DNA of 64,000 nucleotides, from the NCBI RefSeq assembly GCF_002277955.1, contig NZ_CP018477.1, positions 3,307,206 to 3,371,205 on the forward strand. Direction: 5' to 3'. This document shows positions 4,217 through 33,554 of the stretch, piece by piece. Below the pieces are notes generated by a model. It ran no database searches and was not told the origin of the DNA. It saw only the letters and a program-made list of their open reading frames with translations. A program made the position numbers and the translations under genes. Every line of letters starts with the position of its first letter. Position 1 is the first letter of the stretch. The DNA is from Thermogutta terrifontis. GTDB taxonomy: Bacteria; Planctomycetota; Planctomycetia; Pirellulales; Thermoguttaceae.

Positions 4217-4391
4217 ATCGATTCGCCAGTCAAATCACCGCATGGATGTCCGAAAACAACTGGTTTTTCGCTTTTTCAGTCCCAAGAGGTTCGCCAAAGC
4301 TCCAGTATAAAGCGGAGGACCGCACAAGCCAAGGGAAGGGGCAACCTTAACCATCCCCACTCTTTGAGGAGCCGCGACATGCAGGATATGG

Positions 4392-4697: not shown

Positions 4698-4783
4698 CGC
4701 CGGACTGAAACTCGCTCCCGCCCCCAGCCTGATTAAGCTCCGCACCCCTGCGCTGCGAATCGCGAAACGGTGGCGATGGGCGA

Positions 4784-6064: not shown

Positions 6065-6350
6065 CAATGGATTGGGCCAAGGAGGAGAAATTCTAACACC
6101 ATGCGCACCCAGACGAGCCGAAATTCTCATAACCAGCCTTTCATAAAGAGTTGAGCGAGCCTGTACTACCTCCACCTTTTTTCCGGCGGAGCAAATCCTC
6201 CGCACTCGGCCGGTGGGCTGTGCTCATTATTTCCCAGGACCCGCGTGATGCCAAGCGCCAAAAGGCAAATTTCGCAAATTACCTGCGATGGCCCTTTTAC
6301 CCGCATACGGTTACAAGCCAGAAAGCCCACAACGGGAAAGATATGCAGAT

Positions 6351-6698
6351 TTAGGGTGCAGGGCTCGCATCCCCAAGCGCCGCACTCAACCACTTCAGGT
6401 AATCCGCGCTTCCCAGTGAAATGGGCACCGCGATGATTTCTGGCACCTGATAAGGATGCATCTGGCGGATGCGTTGCTCAAGTTGAGCATAGCGAGATGC
6501 CGCGGTCTTTATCAAACACAGCCATTCATCGGCCGATTCCACTTTACCCTGCCATTGGTACACGCTGTGGATCGGACCGGCAATTTGGACACAGCCTGCC
6601 AGCGCCTCCTCCACGAGAGTCTGGGCCACTCGCGCGGCTGACTCACGATCGGGAAACGTTACAAAGACCTGGAGAAAAGAGCTTAGCTGCTCCGTCAT
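6351..6698 (-). CDS. cutA: CutA1 family divalent-ion tolerance protein
   Basis: 115 residues, the normal length for the trimeric, PII-like CutA1 fold. Family hallmarks are visible: VFVTFPDRESAARVAQTLVEE at the N terminus, AGCVQI, the YQWQGKVE strand, and HPYQVPEIIAVPI, which is the most diagnostic block. CutA1 was linked to copper and other divalent ion tolerance in E. coli, but its biochemical role is unresolved, so the name describes the family only. It starts at an ATG at 6698 and lies alone on the minus strand between a HEAT-repeat gene and a small planctomycete-type hypothetical. Confidence 0.93.
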   Translation of the reverse strand: MTEQLSSFLQVFVTFPDRESAARVAQTLVEEALAGCVQIAGPIHSVYQWQGKVESADEWLCLIKTAASRYAQLEQRIRQMHPYQVPEIIAVPISLGSADYLKWLSAALGDASPAP

Positions 6699-6827
6699 GG
6701 ACTAAGCACCCCCCATCGCAGAAAACGCTGTTGGTCCTTTTCCCCTCCTCCCGTAACTCGGCAAGGCGACTTGCGGCATCCCGCGAAAGAGAGAATCAAC
6801 CAATACAGGTCACGATTGCGCTGTCTC

Positions 6828-7229
6828 TTAGGAAGGACTCTGGGTATCGCTCGGGGCGCCACCCTGCCCAGAGGGCTGCGCATGCGTTTTGTCCCGGGCC
6901 TGTCGCGCTACCTCCAAAGCCGACGGCTTGTACTCCACGTGCTGAGGGCCCTCTTTGGGGACCGAAGCCGGAGAAGCCGCCCCTTCGGGCGTTTTGGAAG
7001 CAGGCGGATCAACCACCCGCAAGTCATCCAGGTCAATATCGTACCAACCGCGATCGGCACCAGAATCGAACTGGACAAGCGCCCGCCCATTCCAGTTGAT
7101 TGTGATAACCCGGCCGATTTTCCCTTTGAATCGAGCAAGTTCCGGGCGCGGGCTATTCACGGTGACGTACTGGTCCGTGTATTCCAGTCGCAAGTTCTGG
7201 ATGCGGTCGTAGTCCATATCGGCCGCCAT
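6828..7229 (-). CDS. Small hypothetical protein with SH3/KOW-like core
   Basis: 133 residues from the ATG at 7229, preferred over a GTG two codons upstream because GAGAGGTGA lies just ahead of it at proper spacing. The first half alternates hydrophobic and charged residues (YVTVNSPRPELARFKGKIGR, VITINWNGRALVQFD, WYDIDLDDLRVVD), as expected for a small beta barrel of SH3/KOW type; this is an inference from pattern. The second half is Pro/Ala/Ser/Gln-rich and probably disordered. No signal peptide or catalytic motif is seen. It lies about 100 bases downstream of prfB on the same strand and may be co-transcribed. I do not recognise a function. Confidence 0.65.
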   Translation of the reverse strand: MAADMDYDRIQNLRLEYTDQYVTVNSPRPELARFKGKIGRVITINWNGRALVQFDSGADRGWYDIDLDDLRVVDPPASKTPEGAASPASVPKEGPQHVEYKPSALEVARQARDKTHAQPSGQGGAPSDTQSPS

Positions 7230-7324
7230 GTTCACCTCTCACTTCATGCAGGGATCGGTCACCTCGGAGCCGGCCAACGGACCCCACAATGGGGGTCTCC
7301 TCTACCGGACCGTCTTCGCTTACC

Positions 7325-8456
7325 TCAATTGGACTTCACCGGTGAACGGAAACGGGCGGCGTCTTCCGCGGCTTTCCACCGAAGGTAGGCGTCAAGGAAT
7401 CCCTGAATTTCACCATCCATGACCGCCTGGAAGCTGGTTTCGGTATGACCCGTGCGGGCATCCTTGATCCGCTGTTCCGGATGCTGGAAGTAACTGCGGA
7501 TTTGCGAACCGAACCCCACTTTGGGAGCCGCCTCGTATTTGGCCGCCATCTCGGCTTCACGCTTTTCTTCTTCCAGACGCGCCAGTTTTGCGCGAAGCAT
7601 CTTCATCGCCATGGCGCGATTCTGGTGCTGACTCCGCTCACTCTGGCAGGCCACGACTATGCCTGTGGGGATGTGCGTAATCCGTACCGCGCTGGACGTT
7701 TTATTGACGTGTTGTCCGCCGGGACCGCTTGCCCGGAACACATCCTCCTCGATGTCCTCTTCCCGAATTTCGATTTCCGTATCGTTTTTCACTTCGGGTG
7801 TGACGTCCACCGCAGCGAAGCTCGTTTGTCGTTTGCCTTCCGCGTTGAAGGGGCTGATCCGCACAAGACGGTGAATGCCCGTCTCGCCTTTGAGATACCC
7901 ATAGGCCATCGGTCCGCGGATCGCGATGGTGGCACTGTTGATACCGGCTACGTCGTTATCCACGCGATCCAGCAATTCCACTTCGTAGCCGTTGGCTTCC
8001 GCCCAGTTGATATACATCCGCAAGAGCATTTCTGCCCAATCATGGGCATCGGTTCCACCATCCCGGGCATTGATGCTCACGATGGCATTGCACGAGTCGT
8101 GAGGCCCATTGAGCAGGGACTTGACTTCCAGCTCATTTACCAGCTTTTCCAAACGCTGGAGCGCCTCAGGCAACTCCGCGGCGATTTCCGGAGATTCTTC
8201 GCCCAGTTCGATCATGGCGTCCACGTCCTCAAGCTCCTTGAGCGCCTGATCCATCGGCTTGAGGACCGCGCGGAGTTCCTTCAGCTCGGAAACCAGGGCC
8301 TGGGATTTCTCGGGATCCGCCCAGAAGGAGGGCTGGCTCATCGCCTGTTCGATCTCAGTCTCCCTAGCTTTGCGATGAGCGTAGTCAAAGGGAGTCCCGA
8401 AGCTGCAGCAAACGTTCCCGAATAGCCTCTGCACGATTGACAAGTTCTCGTTCCAT
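7325..8456 (-). CDS. prfB: Peptide chain release factor 2 with programmed +1 frameshift
   Basis: Class I release factor for UGA/UAA codons. The main frame carries the RF2 blocks: GGTDAHDWAEMLLRMY, the GGQ catalytic loop in RASGPGGQHVNKTSSAVRIT (peptidyl-tRNA hydrolysis), and a RIKDARTGH region near the C terminus. The N-terminal 23 codons are in a different frame. An ATG at 8456 reads M-E-R-E-L-V-N-R-A-E-A-I-R-E-R-L-L-Q-L-R-D-S-L and then meets an in-frame TGA in the context CTT TGA C. A +1 shift there continues as D-Y-A-H-R-K, exactly the arrangement of the autoregulatory site in E. coli prfB. The product is 376 residues (E. coli 365). A single unshifted reading gives a meaningless Cys/Arg-rich N terminus, which supports the two-frame model. 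Confidence 0.95.
8384..8390 (-). promoter_or_regulatory. prfB autoregulatory +1 frameshift site CTTTGAC
   Basis: On the minus strand CTT (8390-8388) is followed by TGA (8387-8385) and C. This is the classical slippery heptamer of prfB: when RF2 is scarce, tRNA-Leu slips from CUU to UUU and translation continues with GAC. The upstream stimulator is weak here. Instead of AGGGGG there is only CGGGAC, four to five bases before CTT. Confidence 0.92.
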
Positions 8457-8850
8457 CGGCGATCTCCGCAGATCTTCTCCAAAAACGGGATGGATGAAGA
8501 TTGTTAATCAAATTCTTCGCTGCAAAGTTTGCGCCACCGAAAGGACCGCGATAACTGACTGCCGTCCTTTGAAATTGTAGGCACACCGGAGCAACACGAG
8601 AACCTTTTCTCTGACCCTGTCTCTTGCCGCGCCCCCCCACCTCTGACAATTGCAGAGCGATTGCCGTCCGGTCGCGCGAATTTGGCAAGCGGCCAGGTCG
8701 ATTATTTCAAGTTTAACATGCCTGACAAGATTGGTACACTCGGCCTTTCGGAACCTCTACAATCATGGAGAACCAATGGTGAACCGAACTCGCGGGCTGC
8801 TCGTGGGAGCCCCAGTGGCCACTCAGATTGCCACAATCCAAGGGGATTCG
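8457..8850. other. Divergent intergenic region prfB / queA, no feature seen
   Basis: About 390 bases separate the divergent prfB and queA starts, so it must hold both promoters. I could not pick out a convincing -35/-10 pair, operator or RNA structure. The open frame that runs through it into queA is poor coding sequence. Confidence 0.4.
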
Positions 8851-14796: not shown

Positions 14797-16704
14797 TTAG
14801 GAAACGTAGGGATTGAAGGGAATCAGTGACTCGAAACTGCTCAGCGGGGCACGCTCCAAACATGCCCGAATTATCCGTCGGCCGAGGGGATCCAGCCCCG
14901 GCATCGACACCAATTCCTCCAGATGCTTATGGAAGAACCGATAAAGAATCTCCGCACCCTTGTCGTAGGTCTCCGGTCCTACTTCCGGCTGAGAGTCCAC
15001 TTCCAGGAACCAACTGGGAATCTGAGTGCCTTCGATTTGCATGAAGGAGAGAGCATATCCTAGCAGGGGACACCGGGCCGGTTTAAGCTGTTCAGGCCGA
15101 AATCGGGCGCCACCACGTCGCGCCAGATATTCCCGCATGAGCCACTCCGGCATAAAGCCAACTTCCCAGCATCCGATATGCTGATTGGGCACGAGGACAA
15201 ATCGCGTATCCGGCGTCTCCAGAATTTGCCTGAGCAGGAGGTTGGCCTGATCAACTTTACACCCCGTCGCAAAAGGCCAGTATGATCCCACACCTTCGCT
15301 CTGGAGCGAATCACTGTCCACGATACTGGGATTGGAATGTCCTCGGGGCGCCACCAATCGCCACAACCATGCCAACGCCGGCGGCAGGACGTGCATCATT
15401 CCCAAAATGCCGTAGGTGGGATTTTCTCGCGTGCAGGGCGGCGTGCGGACTCCAAAACTCCGCACATCCACGGACACCGGCTCATTAATCACATTCGGAA
15501 CCAGCCGCCGTGGCAAAATCACACGCGGGTTCGGACACGGTTTTCCGGGAGCATCTTCGATGTGTTCCCAAATCAGACACGTCGCGCGGGGCACCGCATG
15601 AATATTGAGGAAAATGATGGGCTCCTTCGCCATCGTGCAAATTCGTTCAAGATAGGGATCCGTTCCATATTCCTTGATGTGGTCCACCCGCACGAACCAC
15701 GCCGTTTCCGCATCGGAGACCACCAGTTTTCTACCCTTGGAGTTTTGAAAACCCGGGTGACACAGGGCCATGTCATCGGTAACAGGAAACAAAGTGCAGC
15801 CCTGAACCAGGGAGATGTAGCGTTTTTGACCTGTGATAATGTTTCTTCCCAAGAGAAGCCGGCCGTCGGGTTCCCGATGCGGATATTCGAGCATTTCACT
15901 CTTTCCACCACCGCTGGCCCCTTCATGCATGATGGTCATGATGTTGTCGTAAGGCGTCATGACCTGAACGGTGGAACCATGCAGCGTCACCCAACCCTGC
16001 TCCTCTCCCAGGGAAAGAAGCACACCGTAAACGCCCTTCTTGGCGCTGGGTCCCGGATAGAGATTGAGCGAAAAGACCTCATACACCGGAGGACCACGGT
16101 GGTGAATGACCACCTGTTTGCCGTCGCAAAGAGTGTGTCGGAACGGGGGTGCAACAAACACCACGGCCTCCGGAGAAAACTCTTCCGGAAGTTCAACTGC
16201 CGGGATCATCTCCTGAAGAAGCGCAAGGGCACCCGCAAAGAAACTGGCGTTGAGAGGCGCGACGAGAGCCGCCTGAAACCCCCACCGCCTTCCACCTGCG
16301 TAAAACGGCAGAATGATCAGTTCCTGTTCAGCCAGCCAGTCCAGAATCTCCTGCCGAACCTGCTCAAACGGAACTGAAAACCGCTCATGAAATCGGGGCT
16401 TGTCGGAGGGACGATCGTCGGCCACCACCATGCAGTCCGGGTCCCGCCGCCGCATGTAGGGCTCTGTGTAATTGACCGCAATGCCATTGCGGCACCGGAC
16501 CACCGTAGCCTCCTTGAACGGTCCTTTGCCGGGAATGTCATAAACGACTTCAAAGTAATCCCTGTCCGGACCTCCGACAGCCAAATCGAAAAGCTCTTGC
16601 GGCTTTTCGGGAATAATCACCCGCCGCGCCGATTGGAGGACACGGAGCAGACTTTCTGGTCCAACGATCCGACTTCCTACCGCACTGTTCAAATCGACCG
16701 CCAT
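14797..16704 (-). CDS. DUF4914-like protein with PEP-carboxykinase-type P-loop
   Basis: 635 residues from the ATG at 16704, preferred over a GTG at 16797 because it begins at a compact MAVDLNSAVG and matches the roughly 630-residue family length. A glycine-rich loop HEGASGGGKSEMLEY (about residue 260) resembles the kinase-1a loop of PEP carboxykinase, and FGVRTPPCTRENP and GCKVDQANLLLRQ resemble nearby PEPCK-like regions. I match it to Pfam DUF4914, a family of unknown function; this assignment is from memory. No signal peptide or membrane segment. A nucleotide-dependent enzyme with a PEPCK fold is a reasonable inference, but classic PEPCK activity should not be assumed. It stands alone. Confidence 0.7.
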   Translation of the reverse strand: MAVDLNSAVGSRIVGPESLLRVLQSARRVIIPEKPQELFDLAVGGPDRDYFEVVYDIPGKGPFKEATVVRCRNGIAVNYTEPYMRRRDPDCMVVADDRPSDKPRFHERFSVPFEQVRQEILDWLAEQELIILPFYAGGRRWGFQAALVAPLNASFFAGALALLQEMIPAVELPEEFSPEAVVFVAPPFRHTLCDGKQVVIHHRGPPVYEVFSLNLYPGPSAKKGVYGVLLSLGEEQGWVTLHGSTVQVMTPYDNIMTIMHEGASGGGKSEMLEYPHREPDGRLLLGRNIITGQKRYISLVQGCTLFPVTDDMALCHPGFQNSKGRKLVVSDAETAWFVRVDHIKEYGTDPYLERICTMAKEPIIFLNIHAVPRATCLIWEHIEDAPGKPCPNPRVILPRRLVPNVINEPVSVDVRSFGVRTPPCTRENPTYGILGMMHVLPPALAWLWRLVAPRGHSNPSIVDSDSLQSEGVGSYWPFATGCKVDQANLLLRQILETPDTRFVLVPNQHIGCWEVGFMPEWLMREYLARRGGARFRPEQLKPARCPLLGYALSFMQIEGTQIPSWFLEVDSQPEVGPETYDKGAEILYRFFHKHLEELVSMPGLDPLGRRIIRACLERAPLSSFESLIPFNPYVS

Positions 16705-17168
16705 GATGGTAAGCTCGTGTCTCGTATTGTCTCTGTCCGCGAACTGGCCTGATATCGCTTCACCAACACTCCCGTTATGGTCCACAGCTGGACACACGGC
16801 CAGCGCAGAAGGGCACCCACTGAATTACCTCTCAAAACGCCATTTTAACCAGACCGAAGTGCCGCCACACCAATGCGACAAAGGCCAACTGCCCCCTCTG
16901 CTGAGGCATTCGTTCCCTGGCACCACTCCTTATATCTTACCGCCCAAGCGACGCGCCGAAATGGCGGCGTCATCAGTAGTACATCGTAATTGGCAAGAAG
17001 TGTTAGCAAAGTGCCATATTAACGCAATCAGGACCTGCTGGGAACGCAGTTGCTCCGGATCCGCCCCTACTGCGCCCGACCGGCATAGACACCGAACTTT
17101 TCCTTAAGGTTCGCAGTGCCACCCCCAGGAATTCGGCCGTCGAGTGCTCGGCTTGCCAATCTTTTGCC
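16705..17168. other. Intergenic region, nothing recognised
   Basis: About 460 bases upstream of the DUF4914-like gene and downstream of the TIM-barrel gene, both on the minus strand. I saw no gene, strong hairpin or repeat. It presumably holds the DUF4914-like promoter. Confidence 0.35.
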
Positions 17169-17990
17169 CTACTGCACCCCGGCAGTCTCGCCCAGAAGCC
17201 GCGCGTAGGCTGCCTTGGCATGCTCAAGCAGGTCGTCGTACGAGTAGGCTTCGACGTCTTCGCCGATCAGTTCCACGTCGAAAAATCCGTCGTAGCCGTT
17301 GTCGCGGAGTGCCCGCACAAGTTCAACAATCGGCAGCGACCCCTCCCCAAGGAGGCAACGGTTAACCTCGCCATTGGGGGGCGATTTGGCATCGCCAAGT
17401 TGGACCAATGCGATATGCGGAATCAATTGCGGAATTCGCGACACGATGTCCGGAACAGCGCCCAAATGGTAGACATCGAAGATAAGCTTGACCTGGTTGG
17501 AGCCGATCGCATCGACGAGCTTGAAGTATTCGTCAAGATCGGTGATGAACGTGAAATCGCCAGCGCAACCGGGATGCATTGGTTCCACGCCCAAAAATAC
17601 TCCCAGCTCCTGGGCGAGGGGAATCATTTCCTTGAGGGCCTCCCGAAACAACCGTCGGGCGTGGTTATGGGTGTGGAGCCCCCGAGCACCACTGTACACC
17701 AGAAGGCACCGGGTTTTCAGCTCCGCTGCCGTGCGGACGGCTTCCAGGGCATCTTCCACTGCTCCCCGGAATGTGCGCCCGTCTGTGCCGGTAAATCCCC
17801 CAGCCCAGAACAGATGTGACACCTGCATCCCCGTTTCGCTGAGCAGTTCCGCCCCTTTCTCTTCACCAAAGTCGGAGAGCTTTTGCCGCCACACACCGAT
17901 GGCAGGAATCCCCGCCGCTTTGTACCGCAGGACATCTTCCTCGAAAGACCAGCGGAACGTCGTGGTTTCGGATACGGATAAACATGCCAT
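17169..17990 (-). CDS. Sugar phosphate isomerase/epimerase (xylose isomerase-like TIM barrel)
   Basis: 273 residues from the ATG at 17990; a TTG eight codons upstream is less likely. The AP-endonuclease-2/xylose isomerase-like barrel is recognised from VEPMHPGCAG (metal Glu, about 137), LIFDVYHLGAVPD (metal Asp and His, about 170), VQLGDAKSPPNGEVN, and the C-terminal strand GFFDVELIGED (last metal Glu). The protein is cytoplasmic. Members act on many sugars, inosose, hydroxypyruvate and similar compounds, and the substrate cannot be assigned. It lies 140 bases downstream of the FAAL-ACP-oxoamine synthase gene on the same strand, which could mean co-transcription but no obvious pathway link. 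Confidence 0.83.
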   Translation of the reverse strand: MACLSVSETTTFRWSFEEDVLRYKAAGIPAIGVWRQKLSDFGEEKGAELLSETGMQVSHLFWAGGFTGTDGRTFRGAVEDALEAVRTAAELKTRCLLVYSGARGLHTHNHARRLFREALKEMIPLAQELGVFLGVEPMHPGCAGDFTFITDLDEYFKLVDAIGSNQVKLIFDVYHLGAVPDIVSRIPQLIPHIALVQLGDAKSPPNGEVNRCLLGEGSLPIVELVRALRDNGYDGFFDVELIGEDVEAYSYDDLLEHAKAAYARLLGETAGVQ

Positions 17991-18130
17991 CCGTGTTCGC
18001 CTCCCAGGTTTCAACCGTGATCAGGCAGAACGCTGTCGCGGATTTGCCAACGTCCAGTGTAACCAGTATGTCGCAAACCTCCAAACACGTAAAGATGCAC
18101 ACAACCGTGCAGGCGGATAGGTTTCCGTCT

Positions 18131-21100
18131 TCACGTGCTGGGGGACGCGGACGCCGGTCTGGAGAGACGATAGCGAGGATCGATGCGGTCAATCTCCTCC
18201 GTCATGACGTCGATCGTATAACGGATTTGTTCCTCCGTATGCCGTGATGTGAGGAAAAACCGTAACCGCGCGGCTGACTCCGGTACAGCGGGATAGACAA
18301 TCGGCTGGACGTTGATGCCGCGCCGGAAAAGGGCCTGCGAGAGCTGCATGGAATGGAGCGAGTGACCGAGGATGATCGGCACCACTGGAGAATCCCGGCT
18401 GGCGCCTGTATCGAAGCCTCGTTCCCGAGCAAGGCCGAGGAAAAGTGCCGCCCGCTCCCGGAGGCGACGAACACGCTCCGGCTCTTTTTGAAGCAAACGG
18501 AGCGAAGCGAGAGCCGCCGCGGCGTTGGGCGGGGACAACCCCACGCTGAACACGAATCCCGGCGCCGTGTATTTGAGATACTCCACGAGGGCCTTCTTAC
18601 CGGCGATGTAACCGCCGCAACTTCCAAACGATTTGCTGAGCGTCCCCATCCAGATGTCAACACCGTCGCGCGGAACGCCGAAGTACTCGCCGATACCGCG
18701 CCCGGTTTCTCCAATTGTCCCCATCGAATGGGCTTCATCCACCATAAGAAGCGCCTTATGCCGCTTTTTCACCTCGATGAAGTGCGGCAAATCCGGAATG
18801 TCGCCGTCCATGCTGTAGACACCCTCGATCACGATGAGCACCCGGCGGTATTCCCTCCGGAAGAGGCTTAACAGGCGGTCCGCCGTTCGCCAGTCATTGT
18901 GAGGGAAGGGTCGACGACGGGCACCGGAGAGAATGGCCCCCTGGAGAATGCTGTTATGAGATAGCTCATCGTGGAGAATAAGATCCCCCGGCTTGAACAG
19001 GTGGCCGATCACCGTTTCGTTGGTTGCATGACCGCCCACGAACACCACGGCGGCCTCTGTCCCCAGGAACCGGGCCAACTCTTCCTCCAACTCCCGATGA
19101 ATCACCTTTTCGCCGGACACAAGTCGGCTCGCGGAGACGCTTGTCCCGTAGCGCTCCACGGCCTCCTGGACAGCGCGAATGACCACCGGATCCCCCGACA
19201 TCCCGAGGTAGTTGTAGCTGGAAAAGTTGATCATCTCGCGGCCCCCAATGACCGTTCGGTCATTGGTGATGCCCTCGTGGACCGTAAAGAACGGATTTCC
19301 CAGACCACTTGCCTCCAGCACCCGCAACCGCTCTTGAAGGGCGACGTACTCAGGGAATTTCTCAATGTTGTAGAAGTCCTCGGGGATTTCCTGCCCGGCG
19401 GGAATGATGACGCGGCGTTCCTGCTCTACACCGCCAAGATATTTTTCCACCGCTTCCACAACCTGAGCGCAGGTTTCCAGCTCCGGCAGAATCTCGGCCG
19501 GGAAGCGGCCGCCGAAACGCTCTTCCAGCGAGGCGAGAATCTCCATACGTTCCAGAGAATCGAGCCCGATCTCGGTAATGGCCGTATCCAACGTCAGCCC
19601 TTCGGCACGATCTCGCGCCACCCGCCGTACTTCCGCCAGAACCGCCTCAATGATTTTTTCACGACTGGGGCGCGTCGATGGCGTTCCGCCCGATACCCCG
19701 CCCGATGGCGCACTCCGACTCCCATCGCCCGAGGAGGACGAACTGCTCCCGCCCCCTGCTGCCTGCCATGCCGGACCGAGATCGGCAGTTTGGGCCAGTC
19801 GCTGGACAAGATCGCCGTCCCCATTTCCACCGGAAAAGGCTGCTAAAGCAGGCTCCGGCTTCTCGACCGCTTGAACCGATTCCGAAGTCTTTGCAGCCGG
19901 GCTGAGCGCCGAGAGGGGCTCCTCCTCGACGGATGGCTCCCTGTGCCATGCCGCCACGACTTCCAGCGTTCCCTCCAGATAGGCCTGACGACAGGCGAAC
20001 CGTTGAATCTTGTTGCTGGATGTGCGCGGAATACTGCCGGGCTTGATGAGGACAATCGCATCCACCGCCAGTTCATGTTCCAGTGCCACGGCCCGGCGGA
20101 TTGCCTGAAAGATTGAATCAAACCCCTCTTTGACCCGGCGCTCCACTTCCTGCACGATGACCAACTGTTCTCGCCCGTCGCGCTCCACGGCGAAACACGC
20201 CCCAGCGTTCGGCCGAAGGCGATCGTCGGCCTCCTGGACTGTCCTCTCGATGTCCTGGGGATAGACGTTCACGCCATGGATGATGATCATGTCTTTGATC
20301 CGACCGGTTACAAAGAGTTCCCCCCGGTCTAAAAACCCCAGGTCGCCTGTCCGCATAAAGGGGCCTTCCCCATCGGCGAGATGCGCGCGGAACGTGTGTT
20401 GCGTGGCCTCCTCGTTCTCCCAGTAACCGACGGCCACGCTGGGGCCTTGGACCCAGATTTCGCCGATCTGACCTTCCGGAAGACGTTGGCAGGTCTCGGG
20501 ATCCGCGATCACGATTTTGCCATCCGGGAGTTGCTGACCACATCCCACAAGGGCCCGGGCGTGCGGCGCCTTGGGATGACACTCCACGGCCCGCCCCCGG
20601 GCGATTTGCTCGCCGTCAAATAGCCGGATGATCGGTGGCTCTTTGACAAATCCGCCGGATACCATCAGCGTGGATTCGGCCAAACCGTAGCAGGGATAGA
20701 AGGCCTCCCGTCGAAAACCGCAGGGAGCAAAGTACTCGGAAAAGCGTTCGATTGTGTCCGCGCGGACAGGTTCCGCACCGTTGAACGCCACCTCCCAGGA
20801 GCTGAGGTCCAGTGTGTCCCGCTGCTGCGGAGTGATCGCCCGAACGCACAGATCATAAGCAAAGTTCGGCCCGCCGCTTGTGGTTCCGCGGTACTTGGTG
20901 ATCGCTGCCAGCCACCGATAGGGCTTTTGAAGAAACGCCATCGGAGCCATCATGATATTGGGACGGCCGACAAACACGGGCTGAATGATGCCCCCAATCA
21001 GGCCCATGTCGTGGTAACTGGGCAACCAGTACACCCCCGTGCCACTCCGACGGTGCTCAAATGCCCAACAAATGAGCGCCGAGTTGTGAAGCAGGTTGGC

Positions 21101-21679
21101 ATGGGTCAGCATGACACCCTTGGGTGTCCCGGTGGAGCCCGAGGTGTACTGGAGGAAGGCAAGGGTCTGACTGTCGATCTCCGGCTCTTCCCAGCGATCT
21201 TCCATGTGGGGTTCGATTTCCGTGGTGGTCAGCCAAGAAAGTTCTTTCAGATGGGGCGTTTCATCGATCAGGGTGTCCACACGATCTCTCACCGCCCGCG
21301 TGGTGAGGGCAACCCGAGCTCGCGCATTGTCGGATATGGCCTGGATCCGCTCCATGGATCGGTTTCTTCGCGGTGGATAAACCGGCACCGCGACAACGCC
21401 GGCATACAGGCAGCCAAAAAATGCAGCGATGAAATCCAGCCCCGGCGGGTACAGCAAGAGTGCACGTTCGCCCACCAAATCGTGCGTTTGCAACCAGGCC
21501 GCGATGGCCCGCGCCTGCCGATCGAGTTCCCGATACGTGATCGGTTGCTCTTCCGTTTCGCCATCCACCAGATAAATGAAAGCGATGTCGTCAGGCTGAT
21601 ATGTGGCGCGATGCCGCAACAGCTCGACCAGAGTGGTCGGTCCAAAAAAACGACCGGGCAGTTTCTCCGACTTATTCAT
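18131..21679 (-). CDS. Tri-domain fatty acyl-AMP ligase - acyl carrier protein - alpha-oxoamine synthase
   Basis: 1182 residues from the ATG at 21679 (MNKSEKLPGRFFG). Residues 1 to about 600 are a fatty acyl-AMP ligase: TLVELLRHRATYQPDDIAF, the ATP loop YTSGSTGTPKGVMLTHAN (about 175), TGDLGFLDRGELFVTGRIKD. A low-complexity Gly/Ser linker leads to an acyl carrier protein with the phosphopantetheine Ser in GLDSLERMEIL (about 705). Residues about 790-1170 are a fold-type I PLP enzyme of the AONS/KBL/serine palmitoyltransferase group: SSYNYLGMSGDP, DELSHNSILQGA, VDEAHSMGTIG, and the PLP Lys in TLSKSFGSCGG (about 1013). The order implies a fatty acid is adenylated, loaded on the carrier, then condensed with an amino acid with loss of CO2 to give a long-chain alpha-aminoketone. 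That reaction is inferred, not shown. Confidence 0.93.
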   Translation of the reverse strand: MNKSEKLPGRFFGPTTLVELLRHRATYQPDDIAFIYLVDGETEEQPITYRELDRQARAIAAWLQTHDLVGERALLLYPPGLDFIAAFFGCLYAGVVAVPVYPPRRNRSMERIQAISDNARARVALTTRAVRDRVDTLIDETPHLKELSWLTTTEIEPHMEDRWEEPEIDSQTLAFLQYTSGSTGTPKGVMLTHANLLHNSALICWAFEHRRSGTGVYWLPSYHDMGLIGGIIQPVFVGRPNIMMAPMAFLQKPYRWLAAITKYRGTTSGGPNFAYDLCVRAITPQQRDTLDLSSWEVAFNGAEPVRADTIERFSEYFAPCGFRREAFYPCYGLAESTLMVSGGFVKEPPIIRLFDGEQIARGRAVECHPKAPHARALVGCGQQLPDGKIVIADPETCQRLPEGQIGEIWVQGPSVAVGYWENEEATQHTFRAHLADGEGPFMRTGDLGFLDRGELFVTGRIKDMIIIHGVNVYPQDIERTVQEADDRLRPNAGACFAVERDGREQLVIVQEVERRVKEGFDSIFQAIRRAVALEHELAVDAIVLIKPGSIPRTSSNKIQRFACRQAYLEGTLEVVAAWHREPSVEEEPLSALSPAAKTSESVQAVEKPEPALAAFSGGNGDGDLVQRLAQTADLGPAWQAAGGGSSSSSSGDGSRSAPSGGVSGGTPSTRPSREKIIEAVLAEVRRVARDRAEGLTLDTAITEIGLDSLERMEILASLEERFGGRFPAEILPELETCAQVVEAVEKYLGGVEQERRVIIPAGQEIPEDFYNIEKFPEYVALQERLRVLEASGLGNPFFTVHEGITNDRTVIGGREMINFSSYNYLGMSGDPVVIRAVQEAVERYGTSVSASRLVSGEKVIHRELEEELARFLGTEAAVVFVGGHATNETVIGHLFKPGDLILHDELSHNSILQGAILSGARRRPFPHNDWRTADRLLSLFRREYRRVLIVIEGVYSMDGDIPDLPHFIEVKKRHKALLMVDEAHSMGTIGETGRGIGEYFGVPRDGVDIWMGTLSKSFGSCGGYIAGKKALVEYLKYTAPGFVFSVGLSPPNAAAALASLRLLQKEPERVRRLRERAALFLGLARERGFDTGASRDSPVVPIILGHSLHSMQLSQALFRRGINVQPIVYPAVPESAARLRFFLTSRHTEEQIRYTIDVMTEEIDRIDPRYRLSRPASASPST

Positions 21680-22155
21680 GGCAGGATACAAATATCCGTT
21701 TTTGAAGAGGCCGATTCCACGGCAGCGGCCCTCGACCAAAATCAGTGCCGGACGGCAGGAGACGAATCCGTCAATTCGTCAAGCCACTGCGATCAATCTT
21801 GCGGCCTCCAGAATCGTTGTTTTCAAAAAAGCACTTCCGCCGGAAGCCTCACACCCCAACCTTGCTGAGGTTTCTTCATGTTGCACGAAGGGCGCTTTCG
21901 AGACTCGGGCCCCTGGGAACGATGGAGTCATGGAGTCCTTCACCTATTTCGACCCATCTTAGCCTATGTTACGCTTTTTCTCTGGAATCCGCAAAGGCGG
22001 TCGCATTGCCACCTTCAGTGGGGTGATAATCCCCGCGATAGGACAGTTCCCGTTGAATCTGAGCCAGCGGCGGCCTCAAACCGGTTCTTGCACGGCCACG
22101 CGAAAAGAGCGACCATTGAATGCAGGGCGGTACTTATGTTCTGGAGAATGGTTCG
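21680..22155. other. Divergent intergenic region, no clear feature
   Basis: About 475 bases between the divergent FAAL-ACP-oxoamine synthase gene and the zinc-ribbon gene. I saw only a minor dyad CTTCCGCCGGAAG near 21834 and no convincing promoter. Short frames here look like chance. Confidence 0.35.
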
Positions 22156-22827
22156 ATGCTCGTGGTCACGTGTCCTTCCTGCCAAGCGCGTCTGAAGGTC
22201 AGTTCCCAGTTCACAGGTCGGGCGGGAAAATGCCCCCGCTGTGGGGAAATCGTCCCCATTCGCCAGAGCGAACAAACACCACCCAGCACGGCTCCGACCG
22301 GTGCTGCCGGGAGTTCCCCGCCACCGGCAGAAGATGAAGACTTGCCGCATATCGAGCATCCCGATCGTTTGGTCCGTCACTTCCACTATCTTGTGTGTGA
22401 CCGACAGGGCCTGGTCGCCACGTGGGAATCCAACGGTCAGGGGTGGATGATTCGGTCGGGGACGACGTTCGTGCGGGCTGTCCGCAATGCAGACAAGTTA
22501 CCGGCCCAGGGTGATTTCAAACTTGTCGAACTCCAGATCGTACCGCATCCGGACGGTTCGCACCGGCTGGAAGGCCTGCACGTCTATCAACTGGCGTCCC
22601 GCTACGCGCTAACAAGGATCGAACGCGGGGAAGACGCCATCCTTGGCGCCATCCGCGGACCGGGTTCCCTCAACCGCGATCAGAAAGCGGCCGTGTTTCG
22701 GTATATCCGGGAAAAATTCATGCGCCCCATGTGGGAAGACAACCAGGCGCTGATCGATTACCTGACCAACCAGGATTATCACTCCCCGGGCATTTCCCCA
22801 CCCACCCATCCAGCCAGCCCGGCGTGA
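22156..22827 (+). CDS. Zinc-ribbon hypothetical protein
   Basis: 223 residues from the ATG at 22156, chosen because it begins straight into a zinc ribbon: MLVVTCPSCQARLKV followed by GKCPRCGEIVPI, two CxxC knuckles about 17 residues apart. The same ribbon is a frequent N-terminal tag in planctomycete proteins. A Pro/Ser/Thr-rich linker follows, then a compact domain of about 150 residues (LVRHFHYLVCDRQGLVATWE, GWMIRSGTTFVRAV, LNRDQKAAVFRYIREKFM) that I do not recognise. No signal peptide or membrane helix. It is convergent with glgB, whose stop lies 30 bases after this one, so the 3' ends are close. Function unknown. Confidence 0.72.
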   Translation: MLVVTCPSCQARLKVSSQFTGRAGKCPRCGEIVPIRQSEQTPPSTAPTGAAGSSPPPAEDEDLPHIEHPDRLVRHFHYLVCDRQGLVATWESNGQGWMIRSGTTFVRAVRNADKLPAQGDFKLVELQIVPHPDGSHRLEGLHVYQLASRYALTRIERGEDAILGAIRGPGSLNRDQKAAVFRYIREKFMRPMWEDNQALIDYLTNQDYHSPGISPPTHPASPA

Positions 22828-28805: not shown

Positions 28806-30374
28806 TCACCTCACGGTTTGTCTCGGGGCCGCGGAACGGGGAGCCGCGGTGGGAGTCAGGCCCGGCGTGCGGGCAGCCGGCGCGCGGCCGGAGCGGGCCG
28901 GCGCCGGAGGAGTGGACCGAATCACGACGGACGTTCCAAAGCGAAGCGTGTACGGTTTTTGAGAATCGTCTTCCGCTTTTCCTTTGGAAACGACCCGGTG
29001 GGTTTCATCCTCAAGAGCCTGCTCCATTTTCTGGACGCTTTCACTCGTGGCGGCGAAGCCTTCCAGCGAAATTTCGCCCGCCTTCGATCCAGCAGCCAGC
29101 GACACCTTGGTGAGCATCACCTCTTTTGCAGAAGGGATTTTCTCGTTTAAACGCTTCAGTTCTTCCAGCCAGTCCACCCGGGAACCGAGCCACCCGCGAA
29201 CAGCCTGGGCGAGCTGCGCCACTTCGGCTCCTGCCTTCAATTCGCGATCCAGTTCCGATTGCCGCGTGCGGAGCTGCGCTATTTCCTGATCGAGCTGCGC
29301 CAATTGCCACCACCCGTAACCGACCCCGAGTGCCACGAGAACGGCTGCACCGACACCGGCCACCAAAAGCTGCCGCTTCTTAGACGGCGGCTCGGGACGG
29401 CGGTGCGGATGGAGGAAATCGAGCGGTGGCGTGATTTTTTCCTTCTCGTCCGCAAGAACTCCCAGCAGTGCTGTGTACTCTCCGGGATGGTCGGGAAGCG
29501 ATTCCGCCAGCTGGGGACTGAGCACGAAGGGCTGGAAAGGATTGAAACAACTGGCAGAGAGGTCCAGTCGCTCGTGGAGCAACCCAACAAGATGCTCGTG
29601 GGCCGGCGTATTCCCGCAGAGAACAAGGTGATTCGCCCGGCCACCACCCAATTGATTCTGGGCCGCCATCATTGTCCGGCGAATTTCGCCCACCAGCGTC
29701 TCGGCCGAGGATGGATCACGAAGCGGATCACCGACCAGACGGGCGGTCCGCATGAACACCAACCGCCCCTCCACGATCACCGAAAGATCCACCTCATCTC
29801 CGACCAGGTCAATAACCAGCCGGATTTCTCCTTCCGAAAGAGGCAGACAACGGCGAGCCAACGAGGCCGAGGCGCACGGGCGCAGAAGCAGGCGTTCCGG
29901 GCGGAGTTGGGCAACCCGGCATGTGTCCTGGATTTGACTTAAAAGCTGGGGAGAAAGCGCTGCCACCAGTACATTTCTCGGCTGAGTAGGATCTCCGTCC
30001 AGCGGCAGATAATCGATGCTCCAGTCTTCAGTAACGTGCGTGAACTCCCGCAGCGCTTGAAGTTTGACAACCTCCGGCAGATCGTCGTCGGACACCGGCG
30101 GCACCGAGAGTTGACGGAGTTCCACCAGCGAACGGCTGATGGTCACGAACGTGGTCGGACGCCGGATATTGCGGGCGGCTAATGCAGCGGCCAGGCAACG
30201 TCCGATATCCTCCGCGCTCGGCCGGAACGGCTCTTCACCCGCCGGCGCTCCACCCAACGCATCGCGTAGATTGACATCGAACAGATGCTCCAGGATGAGA
30301 CGATCCGACCGAGACGTGGCAACTGCCACCCTCAATTCCCGATCGTTCCATTCGTAGGCCAACCAGCGTGCCAT
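28806..30374 (-). CDS. PilM-PilN (GspL-like) fusion protein
   Basis: 522 residues. Residues 1 to about 320 resemble the actin-like ATPase fold of PilM/GspL (WLAYEWNDRELRVAVATS, DIGRCLAAALAARNI, VIDLVGDEVDLSVIVEGRL, NHLVLCGNTPAHEHLVGLL). One membrane helix (about 333-353, LLVAGVGAAVLVALGVGYGWW) is followed by a coiled coil and a PilN-like periplasmic ferredoxin domain (LEELKRLNEKIPSAKEVMLT), then an Arg/Ala/Pro-rich tail. In most systems PilM and PilN are separate, while GspL joins both parts, so this is GspL-like architecture. It recruits the ATPase to the membrane platform. It lies between gspK (11 bases) and the PilO/PilP-like gene (4 bases). Confidence 0.82.
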   Translation of the reverse strand: MARWLAYEWNDRELRVAVATSRSDRLILEHLFDVNLRDALGGAPAGEEPFRPSAEDIGRCLAAALAARNIRRPTTFVTISRSLVELRQLSVPPVSDDDLPEVVKLQALREFTHVTEDWSIDYLPLDGDPTQPRNVLVAALSPQLLSQIQDTCRVAQLRPERLLLRPCASASLARRCLPLSEGEIRLVIDLVGDEVDLSVIVEGRLVFMRTARLVGDPLRDPSSAETLVGEIRRTMMAAQNQLGGGRANHLVLCGNTPAHEHLVGLLHERLDLSASCFNPFQPFVLSPQLAESLPDHPGEYTALLGVLADEKEKITPPLDFLHPHRRPEPPSKKRQLLVAGVGAAVLVALGVGYGWWQLAQLDQEIAQLRTRQSELDRELKAGAEVAQLAQAVRGWLGSRVDWLEELKRLNEKIPSAKEVMLTKVSLAAGSKAGEISLEGFAATSESVQKMEQALEDETHRVVSKGKAEDDSQKPYTLRFGTSVVIRSTPPAPARSGRAPAARTPGLTPTAAPRSAAPRQTVR

Positions 30375-30385
30375 CGGCTGTTACC

Positions 30386-32023
30386 TCAAGGGGACACGAC
30401 CGTCCCTGCACGACCAAGACCAGCCATCTGCCCGGAAGATCCCAGGACGTCTAAAGGAAATCCGCGTCCAAGATGGCTCATATCTCTCCAGAATAATAGC
30501 CGGGCCGGGCGAACGGTAGCGTCAACAATCGCCTCCACCCGACAACTCGGTCCCCCACCGGCGAAATATCCAACCACCTGCGCCCGGTAAACATTACCCC
30601 CGCACGTGATGAACGGCATGAGGGCTTTCATTTCGTCAAGCGTCACCAGGCCGTCCGCAAGAATCCAGGTCTCATAACGGTAATTCTCGTCGTCGATGAG
30701 AGTGGGGTCTTTGGGTCGGGCTTGAATGATCATCTCGGCCACACTGGGATCCAGCGTGGGAATTCCGTACAGGATGGACCGTGGCGCAAGGTTAATGTTG
30801 ATGCGCCCCGGGATCACTTTGCTCGAGGTGGCCGTGAGATTCGCCATGATCAGCGGTAAGATGGTTCGCAGCAGTGCCGGGTCATTGGGAAACACGGGGT
30901 CAATCACCCGCGGCTCATTCTCACCTGCGAATTGCATCCGGACTTTTGCACCAATGAGATCGAGCACGGTACTGAATTTGACGCGGGAAGGCCGCGAGAA
31001 GTCAATCTGGGCGTCCGCGGGCATCGGTTCGGACTGCTCCGTCCCCTCATAGGGCCCATTCTGGCGGTAGCCCACAATAAACGTCGCCACGTCGTGGCCA
31101 AATTCTTCTTCCAGTTGATTATAGAGAGCCTCGAGGTCGTCCTGATTGATGTTGATCTTGGCTCGGCCATCGGGACGAACGTTCAGTTCCATGCTGTACA
31201 GGGTGAGATACGCGGACCAGCCGCGATAAGCGACGGGATCGTCAGCGCTCAGCCCGGCAAAGGCTTCGGGAATGGTTTCATCCGCATCGATGATGCCGTT
31301 ACGATTGCGGTCTGCCCCGAAGAGCAGTTCGGGCGTCACCCCCCGCACAAGGAGCAACTCCTCGATGGTTTCCAGCGGGCCATTTTTCGTCGCGTAGGCG
31401 GGGGACAGCCCTGAATAGTATTCGATTTCAGCCCCAAACTCCCGCGGTTCGTCGTCGGCATCCAGCCAGTCCATGATCGCATCGGCGATGTCTTCCGTCA
31501 TGCCGGGCAACCCCATGAGAAGTTGCCGTCCTCCGTTCTCCGCGTATTGGTCGGCCAGGAGCAGACTGTTGACGTTGAGCTTGGCCGACTCGTTTTCCAG
31601 GCCATATCGGATGGTCGTGCCCATAGTGTCTTCCCAATCGGGTGCAATGACGGAGAAAAGCCCGGTATCAAGCGGATCGGCGGTTTGGTGCACAACCATT
31701 CCGGAGAACCACGCCGGATTGTTAAACCAACCGCCGTTGTCGTTTTGCCATTCCTCATCCATTGAGACAAAGAGGCGAACCGCTTCCACCCCGGAAGCGG
31801 CAAGGGCACGCGCTTGAGCCATCCGATTGGAGATATGTGCGCCTTCGCGCTCCGCCAGCATGAGATCTCCCAAAGTTAAGGCCGCCAACGAAAGAAGCGC
31901 GACCGTCACGAGCACCACAAGAAGCACCATCCCACGCCGCCGGCGCGAAGTACCGGCGTGCCTCACGCGCTGAGAACGGCGCTGGCCCTGTCGTTGATGT
32001 CCTCCCAGTTGATTCACAGTCAT
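30386..32023 (-). CDS. gspK: Type II secretion minor pseudopilin GspK
   Basis: 545 residues from the ATG at 32023, much longer than the roughly 330 of enterobacterial GspK. After a basic leader (RRRRG) comes the class III signal and helix GMVLLVVLVTVALLSLAALTLGDLMLAE, with helix E replaced by a small polar stretch as is common in GspK. Family signs: LYGIPTLDPSVAEMI and other helix-hairpin-helix-like loops (LLMGLPGMTEDIADAIMDWLDADDEP, ELLLVRGVTPELLFG). GspK caps the pseudopilus tip with GspI and GspJ. The extra length is in the central region. It sits between gspJ (67 bases) and the PilM-PilN fusion. Confidence 0.88.
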   Translation of the reverse strand: MTVNQLGGHQRQGQRRSQRVRHAGTSRRRRGMVLLVVLVTVALLSLAALTLGDLMLAEREGAHISNRMAQARALAASGVEAVRLFVSMDEEWQNDNGGWFNNPAWFSGMVVHQTADPLDTGLFSVIAPDWEDTMGTTIRYGLENESAKLNVNSLLLADQYAENGGRQLLMGLPGMTEDIADAIMDWLDADDEPREFGAEIEYYSGLSPAYATKNGPLETIEELLLVRGVTPELLFGADRNRNGIIDADETIPEAFAGLSADDPVAYRGWSAYLTLYSMELNVRPDGRAKININQDDLEALYNQLEEEFGHDVATFIVGYRQNGPYEGTEQSEPMPADAQIDFSRPSRVKFSTVLDLIGAKVRMQFAGENEPRVIDPVFPNDPALLRTILPLIMANLTATSSKVIPGRININLAPRSILYGIPTLDPSVAEMIIQARPKDPTLIDDENYRYETWILADGLVTLDEMKALMPFITCGGNVYRAQVVGYFAGGGPSCRVEAIVDATVRPARLLFWRDMSHLGRGFPLDVLGSSGQMAGLGRAGTVVSP

Positions 32024-32090
32024 ACCGCTGACAACATAGCAGTCACACAAAACACGTGCTCAAGTATTAGGGCCGGCCCAAACAGCCCCA

Positions 32091-33554
32091 TCATCGGGGC
32101 GGTCCTCCCGGTGGAAAGCCTCCGGGCGGGGGACCTCCTGGTCCTCCCGGTGGGCCAGAAGGCGGACCGCCAAAGCCAGACGGAGGTGGCCCAAACCCAC
32201 CCGGTGAGCCCCCTCCGGATGGCCCGGCGCCTGGTGGCGTGCCGCCCCGACCGCCCTCGCCAGCGCGCGACCCACCTTCATCTCGGCCTGAGTCACCACC
32301 GCGGCCTGAGTCACCGTCGCGGCTTGAGTCACCGCCGCGGCCTGAGCCTCCCGACCGACCACCTCCCGGTGCCGCAGCACCGCCACCTCCTGACGGTGTC
32401 TGCTCCTCAGGTGCTTCCTCCATTCCTTCTTCCTCGGGCGTCATTTGCTCGCCGGAACTCGATTCGCCGGTGCTTTCGGCCCCCGCTGTGGCACCGAGAG
32501 TTCCGGTTTCGTGCGCCGCCGGTAAGTACACCACCGTGCGATACACATGATAGGCACTTGTATCCAGCAAAAGTCCGGAACTGGTACTCGCCATTCCGCT
32601 CACGTCCTGGGAAGACAGTTCCGTGAGTGCACCGGAGGCACCGGCGAACGTCTCTTCAAGGCCGGTTGATTTCGGCCGCAGATACAGGCGAATTTCCACC
32701 GCTTTGGGAAGACATCCCTGCGAACCCGAATCCCACGAGTCGGTCCATCCCGAGCCGTCAAAGTAAGCAAATTGAATCGCTGCCACTTCGGGAGCGATGG
32801 GCTGCAGCTGCTGGTCAATCGTGTCGAGCTCACCGCTTTGTGATGCCCAGACCGTAACCGCCCGGTCTAGTTCCCGCCGTACCAGACCGCCTTGTTCCTC
32901 AAATCCGGTTACGCCCGGCATTGTGGTGAACGAATAGTTGATCGTTTCCTCCGGTGAAACGACGAAGTAGGCCACCGTTTTCACATCGCTGACACGGTCG
33001 ATGAAACGGCCTTCCGAGGACAACGTTATTTCCGAGGAGAGTTGATCCGGCCGCGGTAGTCGGCTGACATCCACCTCGATCCAGTCCGGCCCCCCATACA
33101 ACCCCGGGACCGACCGGGGAAGCGTGGTCATGGTCCAATCTCCCCCCAGTTCACTCATGTTGCTTTCCCCGGTTGATTCCCCCAGCAATTCGCTGTCCAA
33201 CCCTGAACTGCCGGCCAGCGACGCCAAATCACTTTGCGCCGCCTGGGTCACCAGACCGGGGATGAGCTTCTCAAAATTGACCGGATCATATGGCACCGCC
33301 CCACGGATGTCCTGGGCAATGCGTTCCAGTAGCGTACGGGCGAGTTGGGCTTCCTCCACCTGGGCCCGGGCCTTTTGAACTACCCGATAATGGAAGTCCA
33401 CCGCAGCGCCCAGTGCAGCGAGAAGAATCGCGACCAACCCCAGGGCCACAATCACTTCCAGCAGCGTGAAGCCGCGGTTTCCCTGCACCCGGCCGGGACA
33501 ATCCCGGTCGGGCCTGCCTTGTCTCACTCGAAGGATGCCACTTGGTTTAACCAT
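32091..33554 (-). CDS. gspJ: Type II secretion minor pseudopilin GspJ with Gly-rich tail
   Basis: 487 residues. The prepilin signal is NRGFTLLEVIVALGLVAILLAALGAAVDF, cleaved by a prepilin peptidase before FTLLE, with the pilin Glu5 present. The body has GspJ-type features (LARTLLERIAQDIRGAVPYD, IQFAYFDGSGWTDSWDS, VEIRLYLRP). The last roughly 120 residues are an unusual low-complexity tail of Gly, Ser, Asp, Arg and Pro, encoded partly by an 18-base tandem repeat, and are not part of a normal GspJ (about 200 residues). The tail may be extracellular or may have expanded by replication slippage. Neighbours are gspI (42 bases upstream) and gspK. Confidence 0.85.
   Translation of the reverse strand: MVKPSGILRVRQGRPDRDCPGRVQGNRGFTLLEVIVALGLVAILLAALGAAVDFHYRVVQKARAQVEEAQLARTLLERIAQDIRGAVPYDPVNFEKLIPGLVTQAAQSDLASLAGSSGLDSELLGESTGESNMSELGGDWTMTTLPRSVPGLYGGPDWIEVDVSRLPRPDQLSSEITLSSEGRFIDRVSDVKTVAYFVVSPEETINYSFTTMPGVTGFEEQGGLVRRELDRAVTVWASQSGELDTIDQQLQPIAPEVAAIQFAYFDGSGWTDSWDSGSQGCLPKAVEIRLYLRPKSTGLEETFAGASGALTELSSQDVSGMASTSSGLLLDTSAYHVYRTVVYLPAAHETGTLGATAGAESTGESSSGEQMTPEEEGMEEAPEEQTPSGGGGAAAPGGGRSGGSGRGGDSSRDGDSGRGGDSGRDEGGSRAGEGGRGGTPPGAGPSGGGSPGGFGPPPSGFGGPPSGPPGGPGGPPPGGFPPGGPPR
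32284..32350. repeat. 18-base tandem repeat coding the GspJ Gly/Ser/Asp tail
   Basis: About 3.7 copies of an 18-base unit, consensus CGGCCTGAGTCACCGCCG on the plus strand, in frame with gspJ and read on the minus strand as repeats of the type G-R-G-G-D-S. Copies differ by one or two bases. The multiple-of-three unit keeps the frame, so copy number can vary without breaking the gene. Confidence 0.85.

Follow-up and report, generated by a model that had tools for sequence, protein, structure and literature searches.

In Rhodobacteria the synthesis of 3-oxo-sphinganine is divided between three proteins: AasR acylates the acyl carrier protein (ACP) AcpR, and serine palmitoyltransferase (SPT) prefers acyl-AcpR as its substrate; palmitoyl-coenzyme A (palmitoyl-CoA) can also serve the Caulobacter SPT (PMC9386255). 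Three-gene members of this system are CC_1165/CC_1163/CC_1162 of Caulobacter and ECD_02851/02853/02854 of Escherichia coli BL21, and yghO (ECD_02850, listed with CC_1154) encodes the presumptive N-acyltransferase (PMC9386255). At the E. coli BL21 locus (L115; G and L numbers are our labels for genomes and loci) the gene order is yghO, aasR, epimerase, acp, spt. Here we describe a gene from Thermogutta terrifontis whose product joins a fatty acyl-AMP ligase (FAAL), an ACP and an alpha-oxoamine synthase (AOS) in a single chain. It lies in a stretch of 64,000 nucleotides, referred to below as the window (assembly GCF_002277955.1, contig NZ_CP018477.1, positions 3,307,206 to 3,371,205 of the forward strand). 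We consider it likely that this fusion is a self-loading sphingoid-base (aminoketone) synthase, the one-chain counterpart of the AasR/AcpR/SPT system. Both systems place a FAAL-family acyl-ACP synthetase, a dedicated ACP and a pyridoxal phosphate (PLP)-dependent AOS in series, and a YghO-type N-acyltransferase is encoded in genomes that carry the fusion, directly downstream of it in one metagenome-assembled genome (MAG; locus L110). They differ in that three genes there correspond to one chain here, in that the fusion AOS falls outside the SPT clade, and in that the FAAL of the fusion best matches other FAAL models.

Other described enzymes resemble the fusion in part or in whole. A 2013 survey of assembly-line PLP domains lists (Table 2) two A-CP-PLP2 proteins of unassigned product, A3ZWL3 from Blastopirellula marina and A1ZVW4 from Microscilla marina, in which AMP-binding, carrier and Aminotran_1_2 domains share one chain as they do in the window protein (PMC3870968). 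The B. marina DSM 3645 locus (L091) encodes a 1145-aa member of the fusion clade, and we infer that A3ZWL3 is its product; the excerpted text of the survey gives neither an order-wide distribution nor a link to ceramide (PMC3870968). BioWF of Corynebacterium amycolatum is a natural fusion of acid activation and AOS condensation that makes a biotin precursor and accepts Ala, Ser and Gly, but it combines a pimeloyl-CoA synthetase with a CoA thioester, whereas the fusion has a FAAL and a built-in ACP (PMC9544090). Type I polyketide synthases (PKSs) of 2283-2631 aa from a Myxococcota MAG (L111), a planctomycete MAG (L113) and a Planktothrix plasmid (L280) end in an AOS of the fusion type; in these proteins, too, the acyl group would come from a carrier domain of the same chain, but ketosynthase-acyltransferase modules build that chain, whereas the fusion relies on FAAL activation. 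SxtA and PigH are further PKS-terminal or ACP-fused AOS. A Black Sea study reported 138 Planctomycetota MAGs with Spt-like proteins, some of the matches being parts of longer proteins, and its excerpted text considers those AOS that fall beyond its clade B unlikely to be sphingolipid enzymes (PMC11334938). A 2025 review of FAALs (PMC11837247) makes no mention of oxoamine, aminotransferase, sphingo or planctomycet, and no paper assigning a function to the fused protein was found among the matches listed in the open-licence PMC literature. The domain order was thus already known in 2013; added here are its status as core to a whole order, the FAAL residues, the co-occurrence and co-absence with YghO, the contrast in gene order between Pirellulales and other planctomycetes, and the gene pair of L110.

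Architecture and predicted chemistry of the fusion

The gene occupies 18131..21679 on the minus strand, stop codon included, and from the ATG at 21679 encodes 1182 residues, as defined by reading of the open reading frame (ORF) and by an alignment of 40 sequences. The longest ORF, 18131..21739, opens at TTG (1202 aa), its first ATG being that at 21679, and the plus-strand frame at 18131-21679 is interrupted by stops. A first-pass annotation had proposed a FAAL-ACP-oxoamine synthase megaenzyme with all active-site motifs present and a planctomycete host; its coordinates hold a single gene with the domains in that order, and both the motifs and the host were borne out. In the numbering of the 1202-residue ORF, Pfam placed AMP-binding at 42-440 (E 1e-68), a C-terminal AMP domain at 483-594 (7e-13), PP-binding at 699-763 (6e-9) and Aminotran_1_2 at 835-1177 (2e-50). 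Numbered from the ATG, as hereafter, the large N-terminal part of the FAAL adenylation domain (AMP-binding) spans residues 22-420 (20420..21616) and its C-terminal subdomain (AMP-dom_DIP2-like) residues 463-574 (19958..20293). These are followed by a disordered linker of residues 582-669 (19673..19936), in which the AlphaFold2 confidence score (pLDDT) is under 50, by the ACP domain of residues 679-743 (19451..19645; PP-binding), with S708 in the motif GLDSLERME, and by the AOS domain of residues 815-1157 (18209..19237; Aminotran_1_2 and residue tables), all on the minus strand.

The AlphaFold2 model built from the 40-sequence alignment has a mean pLDDT of 79 and consists of folded domains and the disordered linker. 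When it was searched with Foldseek, its first part resembled solved FAALs (7r7e, template modelling (TM) score 0.95 by target length) and its last part SPT (3a2b, TM 0.90). In the NCBIfam scan, the N-terminal part ranked with fatty acyl-AMP ligases and the C-terminal part with AOS of the BioF/Kbl/SPT type; none of the best 25 of 118 matching families, which were those compared with their curated cut-offs, passed its cut-off. The 40 full-length sequences (window included) were picked from 93 with an ORF of >1000 aa. They are 50-75% identical to the window protein, and the ACP serine S708, the PLP lysine K1016, H908, D981, H984 and R1140 do not vary across the 40. Judged from sequence, the domain order is neither chance nor misassembly.

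CoA is shut out of FAALs by a helix specific to this family, together with bulky residues at the base of the canonical pocket, which in EcFAAL are W224, M231 and F279 (PMC8460268). In the window protein W218, M225 and F273 align with these three residues and are invariant in 40/40 sequences, and a helix at 246-251 of the AlphaFold2 model sits where the FAAL-specific helix aligns. The FAAL part is 51% identical to the 7r7e FAAL, and the best NCBIfam models for it are mostly FAALs, though each scores below its own cut-off. EcFAAL itself (PDB 3PBK) matches the product of the E. coli BL21 AasR locus almost residue for residue from end to end. As the CoA-rejecting residues are present and conserved, loading of the built-in ACP would be the expected route; they support transfer to that ACP and speak against an oxoamine domain that would take only CoA thioesters.

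The AOS domain has H908, D981, H984, the PLP lysine K1016 (in GTLSKS), the substrate arginine R1140 and S851, which corresponds to Ser81 of the Sphingobacterium SPT (SmSPT). By alignment, the SmSPT residues H138, D210, H213, T241, S243, K244 and R367, whose roles have been described (PMC10196870), are all kept in the window protein. Across the AOS clade, 121 of 128 sequences retain all six of the AOS residues checked, and three end before R1140. The SmSPT S81 position is likewise Ser in the bacterial SPTs compared. In ThAOS, V79 tunes the choice of amino acid, and a V79S variant turned over glycine and L-serine fast (PMC11906848); the equivalence of ThAOS V79 with SmSPT S81 rests on an alignment made in this analysis. 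A Ser at this position is thus compatible with Ser, Gly or Ala as the predicted co-substrate. At the F114 position a His is found in 11/11 fusions and 4/4 PKS-AOS compared, and not in the deeper members L132, L224, L282 and L283.

The first-pass annotation had predicted that activation, carrier loading and decarboxylative condensation would yield an alpha-aminoketone; domains, active sites and FAAL residues agree with this sequence from acyl-AMP through acyl-ACP to product, and conversion of acyl-ACP to an alpha-aminoketone is very probably the class of chemistry performed. The FAAL domain would adenylate a free fatty acid and, to judge from its family, pass the acyl group in cis to the adjoining ACP, whose phosphopantetheine arm would bring the thioester to the PLP-dependent AOS domain. 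Condensation with an amino acid, most likely L-serine (or alanine or glycine), with release of CO2, would give a 2-amino-3-ketone such as, for a suitable chain length, 3-oxo-sphinganine. YghO homologues, if their chemistry in Pirellulales is that of an N-acyltransferase, would then acylate this product, and reduction would lead to a dihydroceramide-like membrane lipid. The reaction is probably the first step in the synthesis of a sphingolipid-like membrane lipid.

Distribution of the fusion and its association with YghO

The full protein was matched at E 1e-150 or better in 58 of 60 genomes (the window genome included). Several such matches are other FAALs only, and the counts that follow are therefore by AOS domain. 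The AOS clade is present in 179 of 188 Pirellulales genomes that are at least 95% complete (the window genome again included); the nine misses are G437, G030, G037, G048, G321, G322, G041, G452 and G038, of which G030 has a diverged fused copy (37% identity). An even sample of 244 Planctomycetota genomes contained the clade in 13, comprising 11 of the 12 Pirellulales listed and two genomes from outside the order: G282, which belongs to the same class and has the AOS in a 464-aa frame, and G195, from a different class. Thus, the AOS clade is core to the order Pirellulales. Most of the clade matches listed lie in open frames of ~1120-1330 residues, and some Pirellulaceae also carry frames of ~2580 residues that group with the PKS-AOS of L113; the frames of L125-L131 are similar in length to the PKSs that end in this AOS. 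Thermogutta MAG contigs encode relatives at 73% and 93% identity. The first-pass annotation had offered a lipid signal as an alternative to a sphingoid-like lipid; no evidence pointing to a signal was found, and because the clade is spread through the whole order a structural lipid is favoured.

Homologues of YghO, the bacterial ceramide synthase (bCerS), were sought with E. coli BL21 proteins (L115) as probes, at a YghO cut-off of E 1e-30 in the 60 genomes. The window genome has two in tandem at C1:692139-694539 (L145:10008-12549; E 6e-68 and 3e-67). Both are of the GNAT acyltransferase type; two copies are common in the family of the window organism, and one to five are found elsewhere in YghO-bearing Pirellulales. 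In all, 55 of the 60 genomes have YghO, and the five without it are G005, G014, G038, G041 and G048. Three of these, G038, G041 and G048, represent three different families and have neither fusion nor YghO. G037, also without the fusion, carries a standalone SPT-like gene beside and divergent to YghO. Tabulated for AOS clade against YghO, the 60 genomes divide into 52 with both, 2 with the clade only, 3 with YghO only and 3 with neither (Fisher p 0.005, uncorrected for relatedness). Scored as lacking the clade were G007 (FAAL near a contig end), G019, G037, G038, G041 and G048; scored as having it were G009, with a partial AOS where its contig ends, G030, and also G005 and G032, whose clade AOS lie in frames of 519 and 526 aa. 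The clade misses G321, G322, G437 and G452 of the larger set lie outside this tally. In the phylum sample, at E 1e-25, 67 of the 244 genomes have YghO. They include all 11 clade-bearing Pirellulales and not the clade-less G048, and none belongs to the same class outside Pirellulales.

The gene order around YghO differs between Pirellulales and other planctomycetes. Counting loci among the matches listed rather than every match, an AOS gene lies within 1.5 kb of YghO in 16 of 20 non-Pirellulales loci versus 1 of 38 Pirellulales loci (G037); an AOS is also found near a YghO copy in the Pirellulales G054, G059 and G004. The AOS beside YghO outside Pirellulales group with characterised bacterial SPTs in both of the trees described below, and some of the clusters add CerR (L205, L206 and L210). 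Other planctomycete classes thus appear to use the classical arrangement, and most Pirellulales appear to keep YghO without a neighbouring SPT, a separation that would be expected if the SPT step had moved into the fusion. In a Phycisphaeraceae MAG (L110) a fusion gene at 4289-7504, with Pfam domains AMP-binding, PP-binding and Aminotran_1_2, overlaps a YghO homologue at 7501-8625 (E 5e-63) by 4 bp (ATGA). Short overlaps of the ATGA type are typical of translationally coupled genes. This gene pair strengthens the proposal that the fusion makes a sphingoid base. At L111 a CerR homologue (E 1e-34, NAD-dependent epimerase family) is divergent to the PKS-AOS gene, so that L110 and L111, each a single locus, connect this type of AOS with the two steps that follow it in ceramide synthesis. 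In 36 further loci probed with YghO and CerR, the only match was the CerR of the Sphingomonas SPT cluster L290, a positive control; tblastn was used for named references, since longest-ORF gene calling is unreliable in high-GC loci.

In 12 genomes with fusion and YghO, all AOS genes at E 1e-25 were classified in a quick tree (SH-aLRT support only). The fusion is the sole AOS in G023 and G031, and in G025, G053, G033, G055, G049 and G042 it is accompanied only by BioF-like, Kbl-like or distant types. A PKS-type frame is present as well in G286 and in G250, the latter having, in addition, a second, different fused type, and G059 and G040 have an AOS at an unresolved, SPT-like tree position. All 12 have YghO. 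In 8 of them no SPT-like AOS remains besides the fusion, which is thus the sole candidate partner of YghO there. The second fused type occurs in frames of ~1100 aa (L271 of G051 and L292 of G250), and its AOS falls together with the one encoded in a gene cluster on a Streptomyces plasmid (L284), a cluster in which AMP-binding and phosphopantetheine-binding genes are separate; L250, L252 and L255 hold second-type AOS in frames of 528-549 aa with an N-terminal extension. On plasmid pII of Paraburkholderia dioscoreae (L281), genes annotated as a type I PKS, a UDP-3-O-acyl N-acetylglycosamine deacetylase, a clade AOS and a GNAT acyltransferase are clustered, and this could be a pathway to a long-chain aminolipid.

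Proposed sphingoid-base synthesis and competing explanations

The best PDB match of the fusion AOS domain, 6m4n_B, is eukaryotic, and the domain has Tyr at the SmSPT N52 position (as does the Sphingomonas SPT) and GSCGG as in AtLCB2a. The eukaryotic SPT subunit LCB2 (SPTLC2) differs in using acyl-CoA within a membrane heterodimer (PMC5519370), where the fusion has a built-in ACP. A first tree, which contained the long-branch L226, placed the LCB2 proteins of human and Arabidopsis with the fusion clade (99/93); in a second, from which L226 was omitted and to which yeast LCB2 and plasmid and other AOS were added, support for LCB2 with the fusion clade was 91/54. The eukaryotic SPT rows were LCB2 and not LCB1, and a plasmid hemA, in place of PDB sequences, represented 5-aminolevulinate synthase (ALAS). 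Approximately unbiased (AU) tests gave p 0.124 (not rejected) for SPT and the fusion clade as one group and p 0.052 for SPT and LCB2 as one group. As support falls with wider sampling and the AU tests leave other arrangements open, the kinship with LCB2 is suggestive only. It is doubtful that the fullest form of the proposal holds, in which nearly all Pirellulales would make sphingolipids with a single-chain, CoA-independent, self-loading SPT that replaced the separate bacterial enzyme and whose AOS has with LCB2 an ancestor more recent than the one linking LCB2 to known bacterial SPTs.

Several observations weigh against assigning sphingoid-base synthesis to the fusion. In the second tree fusion and PKS-AOS sequences form one clade (support 100/98), which stands separate from that of the bacterial SPTs (99/94), and the occurrence of related AOS on PKSs means that this clade is not restricted to sphingolipids. 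NCBIfam SPT models score below their cut-offs (284 vs 500, 312 vs 640 and 237 vs 670 bits), and the PLP motif is GTLSKS versus GTFSKS in SPT. D981 is replaced by Asn in four genomes of one Pirellulaceae genus (G182, G242, G246 and G286; loci L137-L140), where the shorter fusion may have an altered function; these genomes also carry an AOS in a ~2580-aa frame. L110 is the sole locus with YghO nearby among 92 fusion loci, 43 of them at least 12 kb long, and no cluster of the fusion with yghO or a reductase was seen in Pirellulales loci. Co-occurrence with YghO is also imperfect: YghO is present and the fusion was not found in G019 (an 81% complete MAG), the AOS clade is present and YghO was not found in G005 (89% complete) and G014 (68%), and in the phylum sample neither of the two non-Pirellulales that have the clade, G282 and G195, shows a YghO match at E 1e-25. 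The matches to CerR in the window genome are partial and weak (best E 2e-13, then 2e-9), with no close CerR. No sphingolipid from a Pirellulales isolate was found among the matches listed in the open-licence PMC literature. The window genome, finally, has a third, long-branch AOS at C1:4604627 (4604642-4605685; L003, L256), whose orthologue (100/100) in G004 sits in a YghO-CerR-AOS cluster (L320), so that the fusion need not be the SPT of this organism; in Thermogutta the task may be common to both enzymes or split between them. Of the sphingoid-like lipid put forward in the first-pass annotation, the co-occurrence with YghO and the one fusion-YghO overlap speak in favour, and the position of the AOS outside the characterised bacterial SPT clade speaks against.

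It could be argued from these observations that the product of the fusion is a specialised lipid, an alpha-aminoketone derived, for instance, from glycine, alanine or some larger amino acid, which is neither a sphingoid base nor acylated by YghO, and that sphingolipids are left to the AOS at C1:4604627. This would fit the related AOS at the ends of type I PKSs from the Planktothrix plasmid and the Myxococcota and planctomycete MAGs, the ~2580-aa frames of Pirellulaceae, the 100/100 grouping of the C1:4604627 AOS with a G004 enzyme that sits beside YghO and CerR, and the presence, in G054, G059 and G004, of a further AOS, SPT-like or unresolved in position, that lies close to a copy of YghO in a genome with the fusion. 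Near-universal presence in Pirellulales is, however, unlike a specialised metabolite; in 8 of the 12 classified genomes YghO is present although any AOS other than the fusion is BioF-like, Kbl-like or distant; three lineages lack both genes; and the fusion overlaps YghO in L110. We therefore regard a specialised lipid as unlikely.

Two further explanations can be set against self-loading synthesis of a sphingoid base. The AOS could take acyl-CoA from the cellular pool, with the FAAL and ACP domains employed in a different acyl transfer and the fusion no more than a scaffold. Solved AOS relatives among the matches listed are indeed mostly CoA-type enzymes or SPTs, and the Caulobacter SPT can use palmitoyl-CoA (PMC9386255), but the FAAL has the CoA-excluding residues, the ACP serine is invariant in 40/40 sequences and acyl-AcpR is preferred in the three-gene system (PMC9386255), which makes this arrangement very improbable. 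Least credible of all is a biotin enzyme that, like BioWF, would convert pimelate and alanine into 8-amino-7-oxononanoate. Such fusions exist (PMC9544090), and bioF is the best-scoring NCBIfam AOS model, but its 362 bits lie under the cut-off of 426 (Kbl likewise reached 310 vs 460), whereas a separate BioF in the window genome passes it. In the trees, moreover, the fusion AOS and BioF are separate, acid activation falls to a FAAL and not to BioW, and the excerpted account of BioWF describes no ACP (PMC9544090).

Neighbouring genes and significance

No conserved lipid-related neighbours of the fusion gene were found across the fetched loci. The commonest neighbour, present in 24 loci, encodes, to judge from the one representative scanned, a BBP7-porin-like protein (for example L060:7312-8742 and L037:14323-15549) and lies mostly downstream of the fusion gene on the opposite strand. 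In the window the divergent neighbour, at 22120..22827 on the plus strand, has a zinc-ribbon-like start (CPSC...CPRCG) and no Pfam family above cut-off; apart from this copy, homologues adjoin the fusion gene in 12 of the loci fetched, some of which duplicate one genome. The zinc-ribbon-like cluster has 14 entries in all, counting the window and L001, which represent a single gene. The downstream neighbour, at 17169..18014 on the minus strand, is a xylose-isomerase-like TIM barrel with no evident lipid role, found near the fusion in 10 entries (window counted). Farther away on the minus strand are a DUF4914 protein at 14797-16797 (full-length match, 1014 bits) and, at 28806-33554, a cluster resembling type II secretion or type IV pilus systems, with PilM-like, GspK and GspJ-like matches.

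Sphingolipids were long considered rare in bacteria. If the fusion is a sphingoid-base synthase, a whole order of environmental planctomycetes would make these lipids with an enzyme that may be missed, or given no function, in surveys built on the known SPT clade. The protein would, in addition, be a natural example of a single polypeptide that turns a free fatty acid and an amino acid into an aminoketone without CoA, with a possible use as a biocatalyst; Thermogutta is a thermophile. Should the kinship with LCB2 prove true, the bacterial side of the eukaryotic SPT would fall among the carrier-protein-fused AOS enzymes.

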